Below are positions 13,006-56,285 of a DNA stretch of 64,000 nucleotides, piece by piece. Numbering within the stretch: the stretch's first letter is position 1; every line of letters starts with the position of its first letter. Origin of the DNA: Sphingomonas arvum (GTDB taxonomy: Bacteria > Pseudomonadota > Alphaproteobacteria > Sphingomonadales > Sphingomonadaceae); NCBI RefSeq assembly GCF_026013565.1, contig NZ_JAPDOB010000002.1, positions 806,001 to 870,000 of the forward strand, written 5' to 3'. The notes under the pieces are model-generated. The model ran no database searches. It was not told the DNA's origin and saw only the letters and a program-made list of their open reading frames with translations. The position numbers and the translations under genes are program-made.

Positions 13006-13204
13006 TGCCACTCCTCCAAAAGGGTGCATGCCGGCGCGGGCGGGGGTGCCCGCCGCATGATGGTTGATAAACGAGCAGGCGCAGGGCTCTGTTCCGGGCG
13101 GAGAGAGGGCAGCACGGCCAGGCGGAGGCGCCTAGACGACGAGGCGAAAAGGCGCGTTGCAAGGGAGAGAAAGCGCAGCTAGAGGGGCGCTTACCGACAG
13201 GTGC

Positions 13205-13280
13205 GGGGCTGTAGCTCAGATGGGAGAGCGCTGCAATCGCACTGCAGAGGTCAGGGGTTCGATTCCCCTCAGCTCCACCA
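13205..13280 (+). tRNA. tRNA-Ala (anticodon CGC)
   Basis: A complete 76-base cloverleaf with encoded CCA. The acceptor GGGGCTG pairs with CAGCTCC, the D-arm is GCTC/GAGC, and the anticodon stem CTGCA/TGCAG holds loop ATCGCAC, giving CGC with U33. The T-arm AGGGG TTCGATT CCCCT is intact. It decodes GCG. A stretch of phage-like and defence-like genes begins right after its 3' end, so this tRNA may have been an integration site. Confidence 0.95.
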
Positions 13281-13557
13281 GCCCTGTCAATTACTTAGCT
13301 GGCCTCACCCGCGGGCGGTACGGAAATAGCACGGAAGGCTGTTCCGGCTGATCTTACTACAGGTAGCGCATCCGTGTCTGATGCGCCGCACTCCAGCGCT
13401 GGCCAGCCGTAGGCAGGGCCTTTCCTGCCGGCTCTTGCATTGCGAAGTGAGTGGCTTACCGTTCGTCACGCCGGATCACCTGCTGTCGCGGGAGCAATAC
13501 GCGCGAGTTAAGGAACTCGGGCCTTTTCCCCAGAAAACAGCCCTTTACGAGCAGAAT

Positions 13558-41247: not shown

Positions 41248-41718
41248 GTGGCAGAACCTGAGAGTGCCCATGAAGGCTGGCCTTTGACGTCGAGGCAGAT
41301 GGAATGCCTTGAGCGCTTCTGGCAGCGTAAGAACGCAAAGGAGATCGCCCTCGAACTCGGCATTTCACACGAGACAGTAGAGATTCACCTCAAGAGGTGT
41401 CGGCAACGCCTTAACACTGCGACCTCCATTGATGCCGCCCGCATGGTGTTCGGCGACCACGAGCAGGTGACGGTAAGGCCTTACTATGATCCTACCGGGG
41501 TTTCGGCCTATGATGATCCGCTTCAGTTGGGCCCCGACCCAACAGCGCCAAAATCGTTCTGGAGGGCGGCTAGCGAGCAGGACCCAATCAATCGGTTCGG
41601 TGCAGTGGCGACTTTGGCGATAGTCCTGACAGTGGCTTTCGCTTCAATCGGCGCTGTGGCGTTGCTGATTACAGCAAGCCAGGGGATCGTTCAGCTTGGG
41701 AGAGCGATGGGTTTCTAG
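41248..41718 (+). CDS. LuxR-type HTH protein with C-terminal membrane helix
   Basis: A 156-residue protein. The LuxR-family HTH is near residues 10-65 (WPLTSRQMECLERFWQRKNA, KEIALELGISHETVEIHLKR, CRQRLNTATSIDAARMVFG). A proline/aspartate-rich linker follows, then one hydrophobic segment near residues 120-147 (GAVATLAIVLTVAFASIGAV, ALLITASQG). GTG 41248 is preferred because AAAGGAG lies five bases upstream; 41242 is the alternative. A membrane-tethered LuxR-like regulator without a sensor domain is implied. Target genes are unknown. Confidence 0.72.
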   Translation: MAEPESAHEGWPLTSRQMECLERFWQRKNAKEIALELGISHETVEIHLKRCRQRLNTATSIDAARMVFGDHEQVTVRPYYDPTGVSAYDDPLQLGPDPTAPKSFWRAASEQDPINRFGAVATLAIVLTVAFASIGAVALLITASQGIVQLGRAMGF

Positions 41719-42749: not shown

Positions 42750-43820
42750 TCAATCGCCAGGAGGCGGAACTCGCCGATCGATTTCCTCCGTTCTGTAGCC
42801 AAGCGACGGCGCGACACGCCGGATCACGGGCTCCCAGCCGCTGCGTAGTGCCACGTAGGCTCGTGGGTCGCCCAAGACCTCCGCGCCTTCTTGGCGCAGC
42901 CTCTCGGTTGCAAGAGTAAAGCTTTCCTCTGCCCTGTCCGCCACCGTCTTTGGACCCTCGTTCGCAGTGGGGAAGTTCCGGTCGAGAGTCTCGATCAGCA
43001 TCTGGGCGCATTCGCGAACGGCGACGACCGCTGCCGAGCGCTGAAGGCTGCGATATCGCTCCGAACCGAGAGCTGTGTCGATGAGGGTCGTGAGGTCGAG
43101 CAGGACGAAGCTGAACCGGGACACCGAATAGCGCGGATCCACGAACCGGAAGTAGAAAAGCAGGGGATAGAAATGATGCGCTTCCTTCACCTGCGAAAGG
43201 GAGCGCACCAGGTTGTCCAGCGAACTCGTGGCGTCATTGAAGTCACCGTCCGGACCGAGCCGGGCCAGCATCTCGGCCGCGTTCCCGGTGCGGGCAGTCA
43301 TTACGTCGATGGCGAGGGCCAGCGCGTTGCGCTCGCGAAGGGCCGAATAGACCTGAACGAGGTAGCTCAGCACCAGCGAGAGCACCGACGCGCCGACCAG
43401 CGAGTTGAACAGGTAGAGGAGGCGCGTGCCCGTGGTCTGGGGCGAGTAGTCGCCCCCGCCGACGATCGACAGGCTGTTGCCGGCGACCAGCATGGCGGTG
43501 ACGAAGTCCGTTGGGGTGTCGCCGCTAGACGGTTTGATGCTGGTGCCGAGTTCGGGCTGGATCAACAGGGCAGCGCCGATCGTCAGGCCGAGCGACCAGA
43601 AGGCGATCAGCGACACGACGATCAGGGGCCCACCGAAGCTCAGAACCTTGCTCTGCCTCCGCCCGAACGGTCGCGCGACGGCCCGGACGAGCGCCCAGAC
43701 TGCACGGTTCCAATAGGGAGCCAGCAGACCGGTGCCAGCCCGGGCATAAAGTACGGTCAGGAAGATATCGGCGAGGAAGAGTAGGAGGAGCCCTGCCCCG
43801 GCGAACTGCTGAAGGGTCAT
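42750..43820 (-). CDS. Potassium channel-like membrane protein
   Basis: A 356-residue protein. N-terminal helices (GAGLLLLFLADIFLTVLYAR, LIVVSLIAFWSLGLTIGAAL) are followed by a pore-like element in which GNSLSIVGGGDYSPQT stands where an ion_trans_2 selectivity loop occurs, and by a further helix (LFNSLVGASVLSLVLSYLVQ). About 200 cytosolic residues follow (AIDVMTARTGNAAEMLARLG, SLSQVKEAHHFYPLLFYFRF). The filter sequence is not a classic TVGYG, so ion selectivity is unsure. It lies next to a small membrane protein gene on the same strand. Confidence 0.7.
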   Translation of the reverse strand: MTLQQFAGAGLLLLFLADIFLTVLYARAGTGLLAPYWNRAVWALVRAVARPFGRRQSKVLSFGGPLIVVSLIAFWSLGLTIGAALLIQPELGTSIKPSSGDTPTDFVTAMLVAGNSLSIVGGGDYSPQTTGTRLLYLFNSLVGASVLSLVLSYLVQVYSALRERNALALAIDVMTARTGNAAEMLARLGPDGDFNDATSSLDNLVRSLSQVKEAHHFYPLLFYFRFVDPRYSVSRFSFVLLDLTTLIDTALGSERYRSLQRSAAVVAVRECAQMLIETLDRNFPTANEGPKTVADRAEESFTLATERLRQEGAEVLGDPRAYVALRSGWEPVIRRVAPSLGYRTEEIDRRVPPPGD

Positions 43821-43865
43821 GACTGTACCTGTCCCGGACTGGCGGCGCGCTTGGCGACGGGCGGC

Positions 43866-44495
43866 TTAGCCCGCCACCTCCAGGATCAGGTCGGCGGAAG
43901 CCGGTGACGTTTCACCGGTGGTGGGAGAAGCCGACGCCGCGGCGGGAGTGGCACGGAAATCCTGCGGTGTCCGTCCGGCTGCCTTGCCACGTGAATAGCC
44001 GACACCCTTCGGAAAGCCGCTGCGGTCGCTGTAGTCGCGCACCGGCTCGCCCTTGCGGTCGTGAAGCGAGCGGATCGACTTACCGGCCAGCGCGTCGAGG
44101 ATCGTAATGCCCGCCACGAGGGCAAGTGCGGTCCCGACGTTTCCCTTCTTGGGATTATCGTCACGGTAAGCGCCGGCCAGAGATGCAAGATCGAGCAGGT
44201 CGCCGCCGACCCGGCTATACGCTCCATAATCATTGTTGACCGACAGGCACAGGATTCCCGACGCAATCTCGCGGGCACCGTAGGAGCGGACGAGACCTTC
44301 CTTGCCCTGCACCCCGAGCCAACGGGTCAAGACCTGCGGCGCGAGGAGCTCGGTGAGGCCGAGGCCCAGGCTGAACCAGCCGAGACCCCGGCCCAAGCTG
44401 TCGACCGGTTTAAGCGAGCTTGGTCCGGTCTCGATGACCTTGGGATCGCCCGGCGAACGCGTGACGTCGGCCAGATGGGAAAGCATGAAAGACAT
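43866..44495 (-). CDS. DUF4267-like/cyclase-dehydrase-associated membrane protein
   Basis: A 209-residue protein with SLGRGLGWFSLGLGLTELLA, then VLTRWLGVQGKEGLVRSYGA, REIASGILCL and two more hydrophobic parts (GTALALVAGITILDAL). The GWFSLxLGxTELLAP and YGAREIAxGI motifs are typical of membrane proteins annotated near cyclase/dehydrase genes in alphaproteobacteria. The ATG at 44495 has AGGTG at six bases. It precedes the potassium-channel-like gene and follows the zinc alcohol dehydrogenase gene on the same strand. Confidence 0.6.
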   Translation of the reverse strand: MSFMLSHLADVTRSPGDPKVIETGPSSLKPVDSLGRGLGWFSLGLGLTELLAPQVLTRWLGVQGKEGLVRSYGAREIASGILCLSVNNDYGAYSRVGGDLLDLASLAGAYRDDNPKKGNVGTALALVAGITILDALAGKSIRSLHDRKGEPVRDYSDRSGFPKGVGYSRGKAAGRTPQDFRATPAAASASPTTGETSPASADLILEVAG

Positions 44496-44540
44496 AATGA
44501 CACCTCGCAAAAGAGGATTGAGGGAAAGGAGATTGGCGCG

Positions 44541-45728
44541 CTAGGCACCGGGCTGCAGCATGACCTTGATGCAGCTGTCCTGCTTGTCGCGGAACGTCCG
44601 ATACATCTCGGGGCCGGCCGACAGCGGCTCCTTGTGCGTGATGACGAAGGACGGATCGATCTGCCCGTCTTCGATCCGGCGGAGAAGGTCGTCGGTCCAG
44701 CGGTTGACGTGCGCCTGGGCCATGCGGAAGGTCAGGCCCTTGTTCATGGCGATGCCTATCGGGAACTTGTCGACCATCCCGCTGTAGACGCCGATGATCG
44801 AGATCACGCCCGCGGGTCGGCAATTGTAGATCATCTCGCGCAGCACGTGGCCGCGATCCTGCTCCAGCAAGCTCATCTGCTTGAACCGGTCTAGGATCGT
44901 GTCGGGCTGCCCCGTGCAGATGTGGTTCTCAAAGCCGACCGCATCGATGCACTTGTGCGGACCCTCGCCGCCGGTCAGCTCGGTCAGCCGTTCGGTGACG
45001 CTTTCCTGCTCAAAGTTGATGATGGTGGCGCCGGCCGCTTCCGCCATCGACAGCCGCTCGGGCAGGAAATCGATAGCAATGACCTGCTCAGCGCCGAGCA
45101 GCATGGCGCTGCGGATCGTCATCTGCCCGACCGGGCCACAACCCCAGATTGCCACTGTGTCGCCGGGCTGAATGTCAGCCTGCATCGCGGCATGCCAACC
45201 GGTGGGAAGGATGTCGCTGAGGAACAGCAACTTCTCGTCGGGAATGCCCGTGGGCACCTTGATGTGGGTCGCGTCGGCGAACGGCACGCGCAGATATTCG
45301 GCCTGGCCACCAGGATAGCCGCCGGTCAGGTGCGTGTAGCCGAACAGGCCGGCCGTGGAGTGGCCGAACACCTTTTCGGACAGGCCCTTCTTGCGGTTGC
45401 TGCGCTGGCAGACGGAAAAGTTGCCACGTTTGCACTGATCGCACTCGCCGCAGATGATCGTGAAGGGAATAACTACTCGGTCAGCGACCTTCAGCTTGCC
45501 CCGGGACTTCGCCTCGGGACCTAGATCGACAACCTCGCCCATGGTCTCGTGGCCCATGATGTCGCCGGGCAGCATCGCCGGGATGAAGTTGTGATAAAGG
45601 TGAAGGTCGCTGCCGCAGATGGCGCAGCTCGTCACCTTGATGATCGCATCGCGGCTGTCTTCGATCTCGGGATCGGTGACCGTGTCGTAGCGTATGTCTT
45701 CCTTGCCGTGCCAGACCAGCGCCTTCAT
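44541..45728 (-). CDS. Zinc-dependent alcohol dehydrogenase (glutathione-independent formaldehyde dehydrogenase-like)
   Basis: A 395-residue zinc-containing medium-chain dehydrogenase. MKALVWHGKEDIRYDTVTDP starts the protein at 45728 (GAGGAGAG site upstream). The catalytic zinc sites are AICGSDLHLY and GHETMGEVV; the structural zinc cluster is CGECDQCKRGNFSVC; the nucleotide-binding motif is VAIWGCGPVGQMTIRSAMLL. The C-terminal NRWTDDLLRRIEDGQIDPSF and long insert match the glutathione-independent formaldehyde dehydrogenase-like group. Substrates are probably simple alcohols or aldehydes. Confidence 0.85.
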   Translation of the reverse strand: MKALVWHGKEDIRYDTVTDPEIEDSRDAIIKVTSCAICGSDLHLYHNFIPAMLPGDIMGHETMGEVVDLGPEAKSRGKLKVADRVVIPFTIICGECDQCKRGNFSVCQRSNRKKGLSEKVFGHSTAGLFGYTHLTGGYPGGQAEYLRVPFADATHIKVPTGIPDEKLLFLSDILPTGWHAAMQADIQPGDTVAIWGCGPVGQMTIRSAMLLGAEQVIAIDFLPERLSMAEAAGATIINFEQESVTERLTELTGGEGPHKCIDAVGFENHICTGQPDTILDRFKQMSLLEQDRGHVLREMIYNCRPAGVISIIGVYSGMVDKFPIGIAMNKGLTFRMAQAHVNRWTDDLLRRIEDGQIDPSFVITHKEPLSAGPEMYRTFRDKQDSCIKVMLQPGA

Positions 45729-45865
45729 GGAAACTCTCCTCGGTGATGGGCTGCTGCTAACGCGCCACGAGCCGCACCCGGCATGCGGGCCATCCCTAGG
45801 GAACATTCCGAGGTTCGCAGACATTGCCGCTACGTCGGCAGCCAGACTCGGGGAAGGTCGGTGCG

Positions 45866-47569
45866 ATGTCGAAGAACCATCACTCCTCCGGCGGGCCCAA
45901 GGGCCCGGCGCAGCAAGGCCTGCATGAACTTCGACTGGTAACCGAACGGTTCGAGGTCACGCAGGCGGAGCTTGCCAGTCAGACCCGCTTTCTAGAGGCG
46001 ACGCTCTCGTCCATCCCGGACTTCGTCTACGCCTTCGATCCCCAGCATCGTTTCATATATGCCAATCGGGCTATGTTGGGATTGTTCGGCCTCTCCGCCG
46101 AGGAGATGCGCGGCCGGACATTCGCCGACCTCGATTATCCCACCGATCTGGCTGAGCTACTCAACAGCCATATCGCGCGTGTGCTTGCCGAAGGTGCCAC
46201 GGTCACCGGCGAGGTCTTCTATGAAAGCCCGACCGGCTACTCCGCTTACTTCGACTATGTCTGGGGACCGGTGTTCGCGGCCGACGGATCCGTCGAGCTT
46301 GTCGTCGGTGTGTCACGCGACACCAGCGAGCGGCACGCCTTCGAAGAAGCCCTGAGCACGAACGAGGCACGACTGCGGGCGGCGACCGAGCTGGTTGGCC
46401 TTGGCATCTACTCCTGGGATCCAGTCACCGGTGCACTCGACTGGGACGATCAGCTGCGGGCCATGTGGGGCCTGCCGCCCGACGCCGGCGTCGACATGGC
46501 CGTTTACGAAGCGGGGATCCACCCCGACGATCTTGCCAGAGTTCGCGATGCCATCGAAGCCTGCGTCAGTCCGGCCGGCGATGGGCGCTACAATGTCGAG
46601 TATCGCGTGATCGGTCGCGACGATGGGATCACCCGGTACATCGCCACTGCAGGGCGGACGACCTTTCAGGATGGCAAGCCTGCAAGCTTCATCGGTGCCG
46701 CCATCGACGTTACCGCCCAGCGCCGTGCGGAAGCAGCTGTACGCGCCAGCGAGGCGCAGTTCCGCGGGTTTGCCGAGAATAGCAGCAACCTAATTTGGAT
46801 TGCGGACAAGGTCGCGCGAAAGATCGTCTATCGCAGCGCTGCTTTTGAACAGATCGTCGGCGCTCCCGCAGACAGCGCTCCGACCGGCCTCGCCGACTGG
46901 CTGGAACTCGTCCACCCGGACGATCGCGACCAAGTGGAGCGGGCACTGACCAGCGTCGGAAAAGGCGAAGTCGCCCAATATGAGTATCGCATCAGCCGTT
47001 TAAGCGACGGCGCGGTGCGCTCGCTGCGGGATACCAGTTTCCCCATCCGTGACGACAAGGGCGAAGTCACGCAGATCGCCGGCATCGCCGAGGATCTGAC
47101 GCGGGAAGATGCGAACCAGATCTACATCTTGAGCACACATGAAACGGTCTTCGGCAACCTCAAGATCGTGCTGCTGATCGGGGCCGTGCTGTTAGCTTTG
47201 GCGCACCAGACCCGCTTCTCAAGGGCGCTGTTCGCTAATCGGCCGGCGCGGCTGGTTGGCCTTTGGAGCTTTTCTATCTACCTGCTGCACGAACCCGTGA
47301 TGCAGGGGATCGGCCTTGCCTTGGCTGGCTTGCGCCTGCCGCCGTTCGTCGTGGGCCTGGCTGGGGTGACGGGCACGTTGCTGGCCAGCGCCGTCAGCTT
47401 CTCCCTGATCGAGCGGCCAGGCCAGCAGGTGATCCGGCGGTTGGCGCCGAGCGGACGGCGACTGCGCGGCAGCGGTGCCATCGAACCGGTGACGGTCAGC
47501 GTGCCGGATGGGATGTTCGGCAGGCAGTCGCAGCAGGTGGCCGAGGAGCCGAGCGTGGCCCGGGGCTGA
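45866..47569 (+). CDS. Chimeric protein: three PAS domains joined to the C-terminus of an acyltransferase 3
   Basis: A 567-residue protein. Residues 40-160, 165-290 and 300-420 are PAS/PAC modules (FLEATLSSIPDFVYAFDPQH, WDPVTGALDWDDQLRAMWGL, NLIWIADKVARKIVYRSAAF, each followed by VVGVSRDTSERHAF-type PAC text). After EDLTREDANQIYILST the sequence changes abruptly to hydrophobic helices (VFGNLKIVLLIGAVLLALAH), FANRPARLVGLWSFSIYLLH and VSFSLIERPGQQVIRRL. These are the last helices and WSFSIYLLHEP/ERP signatures of acyltransferase family 3 (OafA-like). No kinase, GGDEF or AT3 N-terminal part is present, so the gene looks like a deletion-born fusion. The ATG has GGAAGG nearby. Confidence 0.75.
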   Translation: MSKNHHSSGGPKGPAQQGLHELRLVTERFEVTQAELASQTRFLEATLSSIPDFVYAFDPQHRFIYANRAMLGLFGLSAEEMRGRTFADLDYPTDLAELLNSHIARVLAEGATVTGEVFYESPTGYSAYFDYVWGPVFAADGSVELVVGVSRDTSERHAFEEALSTNEARLRAATELVGLGIYSWDPVTGALDWDDQLRAMWGLPPDAGVDMAVYEAGIHPDDLARVRDAIEACVSPAGDGRYNVEYRVIGRDDGITRYIATAGRTTFQDGKPASFIGAAIDVTAQRRAEAAVRASEAQFRGFAENSSNLIWIADKVARKIVYRSAAFEQIVGAPADSAPTGLADWLELVHPDDRDQVERALTSVGKGEVAQYEYRISRLSDGAVRSLRDTSFPIRDDKGEVTQIAGIAEDLTREDANQIYILSTHETVFGNLKIVLLIGAVLLALAHQTRFSRALFANRPARLVGLWSFSIYLLHEPVMQGIGLALAGLRLPPFVVGLAGVTGTLLASAVSFSLIERPGQQVIRRLAPSGRRLRGSGAIEPVTVSVPDGMFGRQSQQVAEEPSVARG

Positions 47570-47572
47570 GCC

Positions 47573-48511
47573 TTACCCGACTTCCGCTGCCCCGGAGTGC
47601 TCGCCCTGGGCTGGCTCAGGACGGATGAATACTCGGAACAGCTCGGGATGCTCTGCGGAGATGCGTTGGGCAAGGCTGGCGATGAGCTGTTCGACGTCGG
47701 GCACGCGCAGGCTGTCCTCAATGTCGATCGCGATATTGGCGATCACCTGGTCGGGGGCGAGCTGCGACGTGGTCACGTCGGTCACCTGCGTCACTCGTGG
47801 CTCGGCATTTGCGATCTGGCGGATGGAACTGGTCAGCTCGGGTGCGGCACCTTCACCGATCAGGAGCGCCTTGCTTTCTCGCGCAAGCAGTACGGCGACG
47901 ACCGCTAGCAATATGCCGATCAGGATGGAGCCGAAGCCATCGATCCACGGCCGCTGCAGCAGGATGGAGAGGCCGGTCGCGGCGGCCGCAATGACGATGC
48001 CAAGTAGCGCGGCGCTATCCTCGAACAGGACCAGGAAGGTGGCCGGGTCCTTGCTGGACTTGAACGCCAACCAGAAGCGCTTGCCGCGGCGAGCCTGGTT
48101 GAAGCTTTTCCAGCCGAACCACCAGCTGATCCCTTCGAACACGAACGACAGGCCGAGTACCACGAAGCTGACCCAGGCCTTTGTGATCGGCTCCGGGTTC
48201 ATGATGTGGATGACGCCCTCGTAAGCGGACACGCCCGCCCCAAGCGCGAAGATCAGCAAGGCGACCACGAACGACCAGAAGTAGAGCTCGCGGCCGTGGC
48301 CGAACGGGTGGCGAGGGTCGGGCGGCAGGGTGGAGCGGTGCTGGCCGTAGAGCAGCAGCACCTCGTTGCCGGTGTCGACCACCGAATGGATCGCCTCGCT
48401 AAGCATGGCCGAACTGCCGCTGACCGCCGCGGCGACGCCCTTCGTGGCAGCGATGCACAAGTTGCCGATCAGCGCGGCGATGATCGCCGTACGGGAACTG
48501 TGTTCGGCCAT
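47573..48511 (-). CDS. Cation diffusion facilitator (CDF) transporter
   Basis: A 312-residue CDF protein. Six predicted helices include SGSSAMLSEAIHSVVDTGNE (helix II, S..AE..H...D pattern), LYFWSFVVALLIFALGAGVS and the helix V segment FEDSAALLGIVIAAAATGLS. The RHPFGHGRELYFW motif precedes a cytoplasmic C-terminal domain (VTQVTDVTTSQLAPDQVIAN). The family exports divalent metals such as zinc or cobalt using the proton gradient. Metal specificity cannot be assigned from sequence alone. It lies four bases from the convergent chimera gene's stop. Confidence 0.87.
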   Translation of the reverse strand: MAEHSSRTAIIAALIGNLCIAATKGVAAAVSGSSAMLSEAIHSVVDTGNEVLLLYGQHRSTLPPDPRHPFGHGRELYFWSFVVALLIFALGAGVSAYEGVIHIMNPEPITKAWVSFVVLGLSFVFEGISWWFGWKSFNQARRGKRFWLAFKSSKDPATFLVLFEDSAALLGIVIAAAATGLSILLQRPWIDGFGSILIGILLAVVAVLLARESKALLIGEGAAPELTSSIRQIANAEPRVTQVTDVTTSQLAPDQVIANIAIDIEDSLRVPDVEQLIASLAQRISAEHPELFRVFIRPEPAQGEHSGAAEVG

Positions 48512-48513
48512 GC

Positions 48514-49776
48514 CTAGCTGAACGCCTTGTCCGCTTCGGGCCGGAGCTCAGAGGCGGCTTCGACCACGATCTCCAAGTCGACTGGCTGGTCGTAGGGATC
48601 ATCGTCGAGCCCGGTCGCGTGCTCCAGTTTATCCTGCCAGCGGTGGAGCTCGGCGACGTATGGCGCGAAAGGCTTGCGAAGCAGGGCGCCGGACTCGAGC
48701 GGCTCGACGTCCGCGATGCCCATGTGCAGCCATTCGCCCTTGTGCCAGTCGGTCATGTCGACGGCCGGGAACAGGCAGATGCCGTGCAGGTCGACGCCGC
48801 GATTGATGGCGGCCAGGCACTCGGAGACCATGTCGTTGAGCCAGTCGGGCCGGCCGCCGTGCAGGCCGGAAGTCTCGGCGACGATGCAGGGCCGCTTGTA
48901 CTTGGCCCAGGCCTCCTCGAGCAGGTCGGCGACGGGACGGATCCGTGGATCGCCGGGTTTTAGCGGCTGGTTGGGCTTGCCGCCGCCGCCGAACTCCATC
49001 TGCCCGAAGCTGTAATTGTTGAAGCCCAGAATATCGATCAGCTCCAGGCTGCCGCCATATTCGGGATGCTTGAGGCCGGAGATGATGTCCCAGGCGATGT
49101 AGGCGTCCTCATAGGCTTCCTGGCGGGCGGCCTCCGCGAGGTCGGGACGGTCCTTGGGCGGGACCACCCAGATTAGCGGGTCGATGTGGACGAAGCGCGC
49201 CTGGGGAAACTCGGCGCGAATGGCCTTGCAGGCGGCGATGTCGGCCCGGGCCAGCATCGTGGTGAAGCGGCGGCGTTCGTCCGCGCTCTTGCCGAACGGC
49301 GCGCACCAGCCCCATTCGCCACCCATGTAGCCCCAATAGGTCGGCTCGTTGACCGGGGTGAAGCAGAGCGGTTCGTGATGGGCACGCGCCGCGACGTAGC
49401 GTGCGGCGGCGCGGGCATAGTCGCGGAAGCGGGTGACGAACCCCTCGGAATAAGGATCGAGGCCGTCAGGATAGCCGTAGTGGCACAAATCCCATATCGG
49501 CAGGATCCCGTGCCGGCGCTGGGCCCGGAGGAACCCGTCGATGCACGAGAAATCGTATTCGCCATTCCCCTTGTCGACGAGCGGCCAGGGGATGCCTTCG
49601 CGCACAGTTGCAATGCCGAGCGGCTTCAGCATCGCATAATCCTCGTCGGCATGGGCGTAATGGCCCAGCTCCCGGTTCATGTCGCGGCGGCCGACGTCCT
49701 TCCAGTCGAAGGTGGAGCACTCGAACCCCGACAGGAAGAAGGTCGGGAAGATACCTTGGCGGCGCTGATCGGGCAT
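48514..49776 (-). CDS. GH1-like glycoside hydrolase
   Basis: A 420-residue TIM-barrel glycosidase-like protein. Visible motifs are FLSGFECSTFDWKDVGRRDM, HYAHADEDYAMLKPLGIATV (GH1/GH5-like barrel start), CFTPVNEPTYWGYMGGEWGW (Asn-Glu-Pro acid/base motif) and PCIVAETSGLHGG (probable nucleophile Glu). It resembles beta-glucosidase-like proteins of unknown specificity often grouped with family 1. No signal peptide is seen at the chosen ATG 49776; a longer frame to 49848 adds a basic segment. It starts 79 bases from the divergent oxoprolinase operon. Confidence 0.75.
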   Translation of the reverse strand: MPDQRRQGIFPTFFLSGFECSTFDWKDVGRRDMNRELGHYAHADEDYAMLKPLGIATVREGIPWPLVDKGNGEYDFSCIDGFLRAQRRHGILPIWDLCHYGYPDGLDPYSEGFVTRFRDYARAAARYVAARAHHEPLCFTPVNEPTYWGYMGGEWGWCAPFGKSADERRRFTTMLARADIAACKAIRAEFPQARFVHIDPLIWVVPPKDRPDLAEAARQEAYEDAYIAWDIISGLKHPEYGGSLELIDILGFNNYSFGQMEFGGGGKPNQPLKPGDPRIRPVADLLEEAWAKYKRPCIVAETSGLHGGRPDWLNDMVSECLAAINRGVDLHGICLFPAVDMTDWHKGEWLHMGIADVEPLESGALLRKPFAPYVAELHRWQDKLEHATGLDDDPYDQPVDLEIVVEAASELRPEADKAFS

Positions 49777-49855
49777 GGCTTTCGTAACGGACGGGTAGGG
49801 GCGAAGGTCCGTCACCCGAGTTGAGCGGGCCGGGCGCGCGTGCTTCAAGGCTTAC

Positions 49856-56030: not shown

Positions 56031-56285
56031 ATGCCACGATTTTACCTCCACCTGGAAAACCGCGTCGGGCTCACTCGCGATCACGACGGGCAGGAGTTTC
56101 CGGACCTTGCAGCGGCGCGAACTGCTGCGGCAGCCAACATCCGCGATATATTGGCCGAAGAGGTCAAGCACGGCCGCCTCGACATGCGTGGCCTAATCCG
56201 CATCGCCGATGCACAAGATCCGCAGCTGTCAGTCGTTCCCTTCGCGGAAGCGTTGGCCGTAACGCTTGAAGGAGAGTCCGGGTGA
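56031..56285 (+). CDS. DUF6894 small protein
   Basis: An 84-residue protein: MPRFYLHLENRVGLTRDHDG, QEFPDLAAARTAAAANIRDI, LAEEVKHGRLDMRGLIRIAD. The MPRFYLHL...DxxGxEFxDLxxAR pattern is the DUF6894 family, abundant in alphaproteobacteria, of unknown function. Its stop overlaps the GTG start of the Crp/Fnr-type regulator, so the two are coupled. Confidence 0.75.
   Translation: MPRFYLHLENRVGLTRDHDGQEFPDLAAARTAAAANIRDILAEEVKHGRLDMRGLIRIADAQDPQLSVVPFAEALAVTLEGESG

Follow-up and report, generated by a model that had tools for sequence, protein, structure and literature searches.

Chimeric genes arise at rearrangement or island borders. The gene we investigated in Sphingomonas arvum shares with such genes the fusion of two unrelated gene pieces in one frame; it lies in a stretch of 64 kb that was analysed as a whole and is called the window below. 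On one side, the closest described systems are regulators of the PAS-PAS-PAS-receiver-LuxR type with a FixJ-like end. The window protein has about its first 425 residues in common with them; however, it is without the receiver beyond strand 1 and without the whole LuxR helix-turn-helix (HTH). On the other side stands the acyltransferase-3 (AT3) family (PF01757), of which OafB is an example and with which the window protein shares the last part of the domain, including the motif SFSIYLLHEP and a final ERPG. In the part of the OafB study drawn on here, AT3 domains are built of ten helices and have their essential arginines at helices 1 and 3; the proposed catalytic residues of OafB are His25 and Tyr194, the latter between helices 5 and 6 (PMC9833829). 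Compared with OafB as described in that part of the study, the tail of the window protein lacks about seven of the ten helices, together with the regions of the essential arginines and of His25 and Tyr194 (PMC9833829).

The DNA in front of the gene also bears a resemblance to described sites. The window's putative site, GGAAC-N17-CATT, is similar to the EcfG sites of Sphingomonas melonis Fr1, which, in the part of that work used here, read GGAAC-N17-20-GTT, with some ending in CATT; the same source lists a Zn-dependent alcohol dehydrogenase of this strain, #2499, as a putative indirect target of EcfG (PMC6599016). Judged by title and abstract, none of the papers found on AT3, on PAS and AT3 chimeras, on PAS/LuxR and EcfG, or on island-border fusions describes the chimera, and the literature searched yielded no paper on the regulator-dehydrogenase module to which its front part belongs. 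The features of the locus are:

13205-13280, tRNA-Ala(cgc), at the start of a low-GC segment
42750-43820, minus strand, conserved module gene, Ion_trans_2-like membrane protein
43866-44510, minus strand, conserved module gene without Pfam or NCBIfam match
44541-45728, minus strand, zinc alcohol dehydrogenase (ADH_N and ADH_zinc_N), divergent to the chimera
45800-45825, plus strand, promoter-like site GGAAC-N17-CATT, 5' of the chimera
45866-47569, plus strand, chimeric ORF of 567 aa: PAS-PAS-PAS, start of receiver strand 1, AT3 C-terminal piece
45866-47140, plus strand, regulator-derived part, residues 1-425: three PAS domains and the first FixJ-like receiver residues (QIYILST)
47134-47162, plus strand, junction interval, from the end of parent similarity to the start of AT3 similarity
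47141-47569, plus strand, AT3-derived tail of 142 aa: three likely helices, SFSIYLLHEP, IERPGQQ
47573-48511, minus strand, cation diffusion facilitator (CDF; Cation_efflux, PF01545), convergent with the chimera

A regulator front and an acyltransferase tail in one frame

The chimera is real as a sequence. In the ORF list and its translation, 567 codons run without a stop from 45866 to 47569 on the plus strand, and of the three frames compared over this interval only the chimera's is open; it encodes three PAS domains and then the last ~100 residues of an AT3 protein. The original prediction of a triple-PAS sensor that continues in the same frame into an AT3 C-terminus is borne out by these open codons, by Pfam and by the AT3 profile described below. 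A TTG at 45824 is an alternative upstream start in this frame; we take the ATG at 45866 as the start, since the methionine of the parent from Rhizobium vallis (L056) aligns with it and GGGGAAGG lies directly 5' of it. Pfam finds PAS folds above cut-off in three stretches of the protein and, at E up to 1, no match to Response_reg or to GerE (LuxR DNA-binding); AT3 profile positions before 239 are absent as well. The prediction was therefore also right that the protein has neither an output domain nor the catalytic AT3 region. AlphaFold returns three confident PAS folds, with pLDDT mostly 70-90 across residues 51-413. For residues 414-567 pLDDT is below 50, but the input alignment held no AT3 rows, and two of its parent rows carried two or three stray residues in the tail region; the low value for the tail is thus not independent evidence, and we conclude nothing from it. 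The genome contains no close full-length paralogue, the next best match being 34% identical over residues 33-293.

A single similarity scan of genome contigs, which detects close relatives only, returned 19 related loci (L038-L056), of which 13 were translated (all except L049-L054). Read by eye, ten of the 13 continue from the PAS part through a receiver-like segment to a LuxR-type HTH end, two (L045 and L047) are frame-disrupted, and one (L055) stops at a contig edge. The first ~425 residues of the window protein are 62-71% identical to ten PAS-PAS-PAS-receiver-LuxR parents, nine of them alphaproteobacterial and one from Schlegelella; examples are the proteins from Antarcticirhabdus (L039), Propylenella (L041), Sphingomonas deserti (L044), Schlegelella (L048) and Rhizobium vallis (L056). 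Response_reg and GerE were above the Pfam cut-off in all five parents scanned, and one parent aligned from its residue 418 with positions 5-201 of 203 of the NCBIfam FixJ model, at a score below the model's cut-off.

The transition between the two parts is narrow. Five of the six parents compared lose their similarity at 47134-47146, within the first strand of the FixJ-like receiver, close to the position of about residue 421 (DNA about 47125) given in the original prediction; in the sixth parent it runs weakly on to 47173. AT3 similarity begins at residue 427 (47144) in Pfam or at residue 433 (47162) with our own profile. Nucleotide identity to 11 parents is 7-13 per 15 bases in the five bins before 47135 and falls to 3-7 of 15 in the bin 47135-47149. 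The parents continue into the receiver, as in the Propylenella protein with QVYVVSARAAEARRL; the window at the same place reads QIYILSTHETVFGNLKIVLL, with the first receiver strand giving way to an AT3 helix. Nothing of the remaining receiver and HTH is left in the 64-kb window, where the sole receiver/HTH match elsewhere, at 32-43%, is to a separate LuxR-type gene (41284-41454). A scan of codon log-odds placed the optimum change at residue 379 rather than 425, with weak contrast.

For the tail, PF01757 matches residues 427-510 at profile positions 240-323 of 326 (E 8.2e-5) with 22.2 bits, which is below the gathering score of 31, and the tail does not amount to a whole AT3 domain. A separate scan of the C-terminal 158 aa extends the match to positions 239-323 of 326 and 25.6 bits. 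Our own AT3 profile, for which 35 loci supplied 16 AT3 reading frames and the L063 query was entered a second time, matches residues 433-532 with 73.8 bits (E 2.8e-21). Among the stop-to-stop frames of at least 30 aa from the window and the 19 related loci, the tail is the sole match to this profile at E up to 10. Pfam by itself gives a borderline result, but the score of our own profile means that the AT3 assignment is not due to chance. Over 112 columns the tail is 38% identical to the intact AT3 protein L063 (385 aa), and SFSIYL and ERPGQ fall in the same columns. No AT3 donor came to light in samples of 396 genomes of the order and 385 of the class, where the best-scoring relatives are 31-40% identical, the top one at 38-40%, and none exceeds 43% among the matches listed; the plasmid search gave 18 records, each below 60% identity and none covering 80% of the tail.

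A hydropathy scan marks two strongly hydrophobic regions in the tail, residues 425-452 and 481-515, and a third helix between them (466-488) was placed by hand and from the low-confidence model, which gives at most three likely helices where an AT3 protein has ten. Between likely helices 1 and 2 there are 4 K/R and no D/E, and after helix 3 there are 8 K/R and 5 D/E; a single K is located in helix 1 and a single R in the loop that joins helices 2 and 3. By the positive-inside rule these charges would fit the native end of an AT3 protein, with helix 1 starting outside. Since the regions of the AT3 arginines, His and Tyr, as placed in the part of the OafB study cited, are missing, the tail should be unable to act as an enzyme (PMC9833829). 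It ends 3 bases short of the convergent CDF gene.

The dehydrogenase module and the promoter-like site

In ten of the 13 translated loci (L038-L040, L042-L047 and L055) the regulator adjoins a divergent alcohol dehydrogenase that is 77-83% identical to the one in the window. The counterpart of the gene at 43866 comes next in nine of the 13, and the Ion_trans_2-like gene is present in seven. Related genes occur in a different arrangement in L041, L048 has only dehydrogenases of at most 49% identity, and no alcohol dehydrogenase was detected in L056. The window retains the module from 42750 to 47140, including the divergent dehydrogenase and the GGAAC between the two genes.

The GGAAC element is found at nearly the same distance in ten of 11 regions, as against 743 of 5500 shuffled regions, and the longer pattern GGAAC-N16-20-[AG]TT in eight of 11 as against 48 of 5500; L039 and L043 are without the second half of the box and L040 is without the whole box. 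A single site of this kind proves little, because a similar pattern occurs seven times in the window where 3.1 occurrences are expected by chance; the argument is its conserved position. Given the conservation of this GGAAC-type site, the chimera may be transcribed.

Distribution of the fusion and the surroundings of the join

At E 1e-80, no fusion was found in further genomes sampled from the order (295) and from the class (384); the two samples overlap, and at most 3-4 candidates were scored per genome. The AT3 tail occurs in none of the 19 related loci, none of the 679 plasmid records with a match covers 80% of the chimera, and in 100 relatives the matches listed from outside its own genome are only of the PAS type, none extending past residue 459. 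Within the samples and thresholds used, the fusion is thus found in its own genome only. The original prediction held that the same junction in many species would argue for a domain architecture; no such recurrence was seen in the genome, locus and plasmid samples. A conserved PAS-AT3 domain architecture was considered and is rejected, as the samples searched contain no second fusion.

The two parts were also followed separately. Identity to the front part is at most 43% in 60 genomes of the same genus, among the matches listed, as against 62-71% in the ten parents, and the samples from the order and the class have no match at E 1e-80; on these grounds the regulator front part was probably acquired horizontally. 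On plasmids the best match is 63.5% identical over residues 30-424 and comes from Sphingobium sp. TomTYG65. This relative of the PAS part lies at 809798-810982 of AP027331.1, a plasmid record of 1.28 Mb, and is annotated as a hypothetical protein. As for the AT3 part, no head was detected elsewhere in the 64-kb window, and no AT3 gene lies beside the parents in the 19 related loci, whose flanks extend up to 6 kb and are sometimes shorter. The genome has four other AT3 genes, all elsewhere, one of which ends at profile position 291. The search yielded no genome in which an intact regulator and an intact AT3 gene stand side by side.

The CDF gene to the right lies outside the parent module and has no match in L038-L056. 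In the window, the CDF gene and a GH1-like gene are adjacent (47573-49848). Homologues of the CDF, GH1-like, hydantoinase and ABC/M1 genes were each searched for in 71 genomes of the genus, including its own. Twelve genus stretches were compared, of which four centre on CDF homologues and eight on GH1-like ones; the neighbouring genes were read in the four CDF stretches, and in none of the 12 do CDF and GH1-like genes occur together. In one stretch (L132) about 6 kb separates a homologue of the CDF gene from a homologue of the CRP-like gene at 56282. Among the genus stretches examined the right flank lacks synteny, which hides the earlier state of the locus.

GC content is 58-66% over 13-47 kb of the window as against 63-71% to the right, with values left of the join reaching 65% in places, and GC3 rises from 0.73 in the PAS part to 0.85 in the AT3 tail. 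This contrast across the join suggests that it may be the right border of foreign DNA, but the codon log-odds scan did not place a change there. The segment from 13205 to 47140 is low in GC, contains many short ORFs and has an island-like look. No exact repeat of at least 13 bases from 13201-13400 occurs elsewhere in the window (there are only three of 12), and no att-like repeat was found in it.

Origin and present state of the chimera

We think it likely that the chimera is a rearrangement junction that inactivated a regulator, in which a PAS regulator was broken within its receiver and continues, without a frame shift, into the 3'-terminal third of an AT3 gene. The break in a probably acquired regulator gene, divergent to the alcohol dehydrogenase, would have fallen just a few codons past the start of the receiver, and the AT3 piece would have followed on in the right frame by chance; the window does not contain the 5' part of this AT3 gene. 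The event may have been the acquisition breakpoint or a later deletion, and the data are equally compatible with a border of acquired DNA and with a deletion between neighbours. The latter, proposed in the original prediction as the fusion of two neighbouring genes, is possible: a local deletion would have removed the receiver, the HTH and the AT3 head between a formerly adjacent pair of intact regulator and AT3 genes. Such a deletion is a special case of the rearrangement junction, so that the probabilities of the two overlap; taken by itself we regard it as rather doubtful. One simple event would yield exactly the observed structure, the regulator and AT3 pieces point in the same direction, and the GC3 of the AT3 tail is host-like; however, the related loci have no AT3 gene within their flanks, and no intact side-by-side pair came to light. 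The genes of the right flank are not neighbours in the genus stretches, which is absence of evidence and not disproof. That an assembly or sequencing artefact joined unrelated stretches is very improbable: the uniqueness of the junction would fit an artefact, but the genome is in 3 contigs with 100% completeness and 0.28% contamination, the join lies about 853 kb inside a contig, and the ORF remains open across it.

Whether the rearrangement left a working protein is a separate matter. The 567-aa protein is most likely inactive as a regulator, since without an HTH it should be unable to bind DNA. Its PAS array could still adopt its fold and be expressed from the conserved stress-type promoter; the AT3 tail would add two or three hydrophobic helices and no enzyme, with tethering, misfolding or destabilisation of the protein as the probable outcome. 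For the dehydrogenase module next door, this would mean the loss of its linked regulator. The open frame, the coding-like GC3 up to its end and the conserved promoter-like site are features that a long-dead gene need not have retained, and they count against this reading. The same open frame and promoter-like site, together with three intact PAS domains and the two strongly hydrophobic regions of the tail, would be in keeping with a functional sensor, in which the AT3 helices serve as a membrane anchor and the PAS array signals via a partner protein. We nevertheless consider such a sensor unlikely, as the protein has no output domain and the fusion is found in one genome only among the samples searched. 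Moreover, the membrane-anchored role suggested in the original prediction agrees with the hydrophobic regions but, in its simple version, is at odds with the charge pattern: helix 1 would have to enter from outside, which a cytoplasmic PAS array could not provide, unless only helices 2 and 3 insert, and a hairpin of these two is still possible. Even less probable, in our view, is a newborn chimera, limited to one lineage, that is expressed from a general-stress promoter and acts as a membrane-tethered PAS sensor or decoy on which selection has yet to decide. The chimera has the look of a single rearrangement scar and not of a novel type of sensor.

As a single case, the locus illustrates that rearrangement can create a long, open and domain-rich ORF, which an annotation pipeline could call a PAS domain protein despite the lost output. 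A useful by-product is the parent PAS-receiver-LuxR regulator, which occurs with a conserved dehydrogenase module and a stress-type box in scattered Alphaproteobacteria; this regulator module is a more durable observation than the chimera. An acidic pair is usual at the start of a receiver. By eye, the receivers of the parents (L038-L044, L046, L048 and L056) begin like QVYVVSxRAAEARRL, without this pair, and most of them retain an aspartate of the VLVDLR type; the parents' receiver may thus be degenerate. In Devosia aurantiaca (L047, 6001-7900) the regulator copy is disrupted, yet coding for the receiver and the HTH persists further on.
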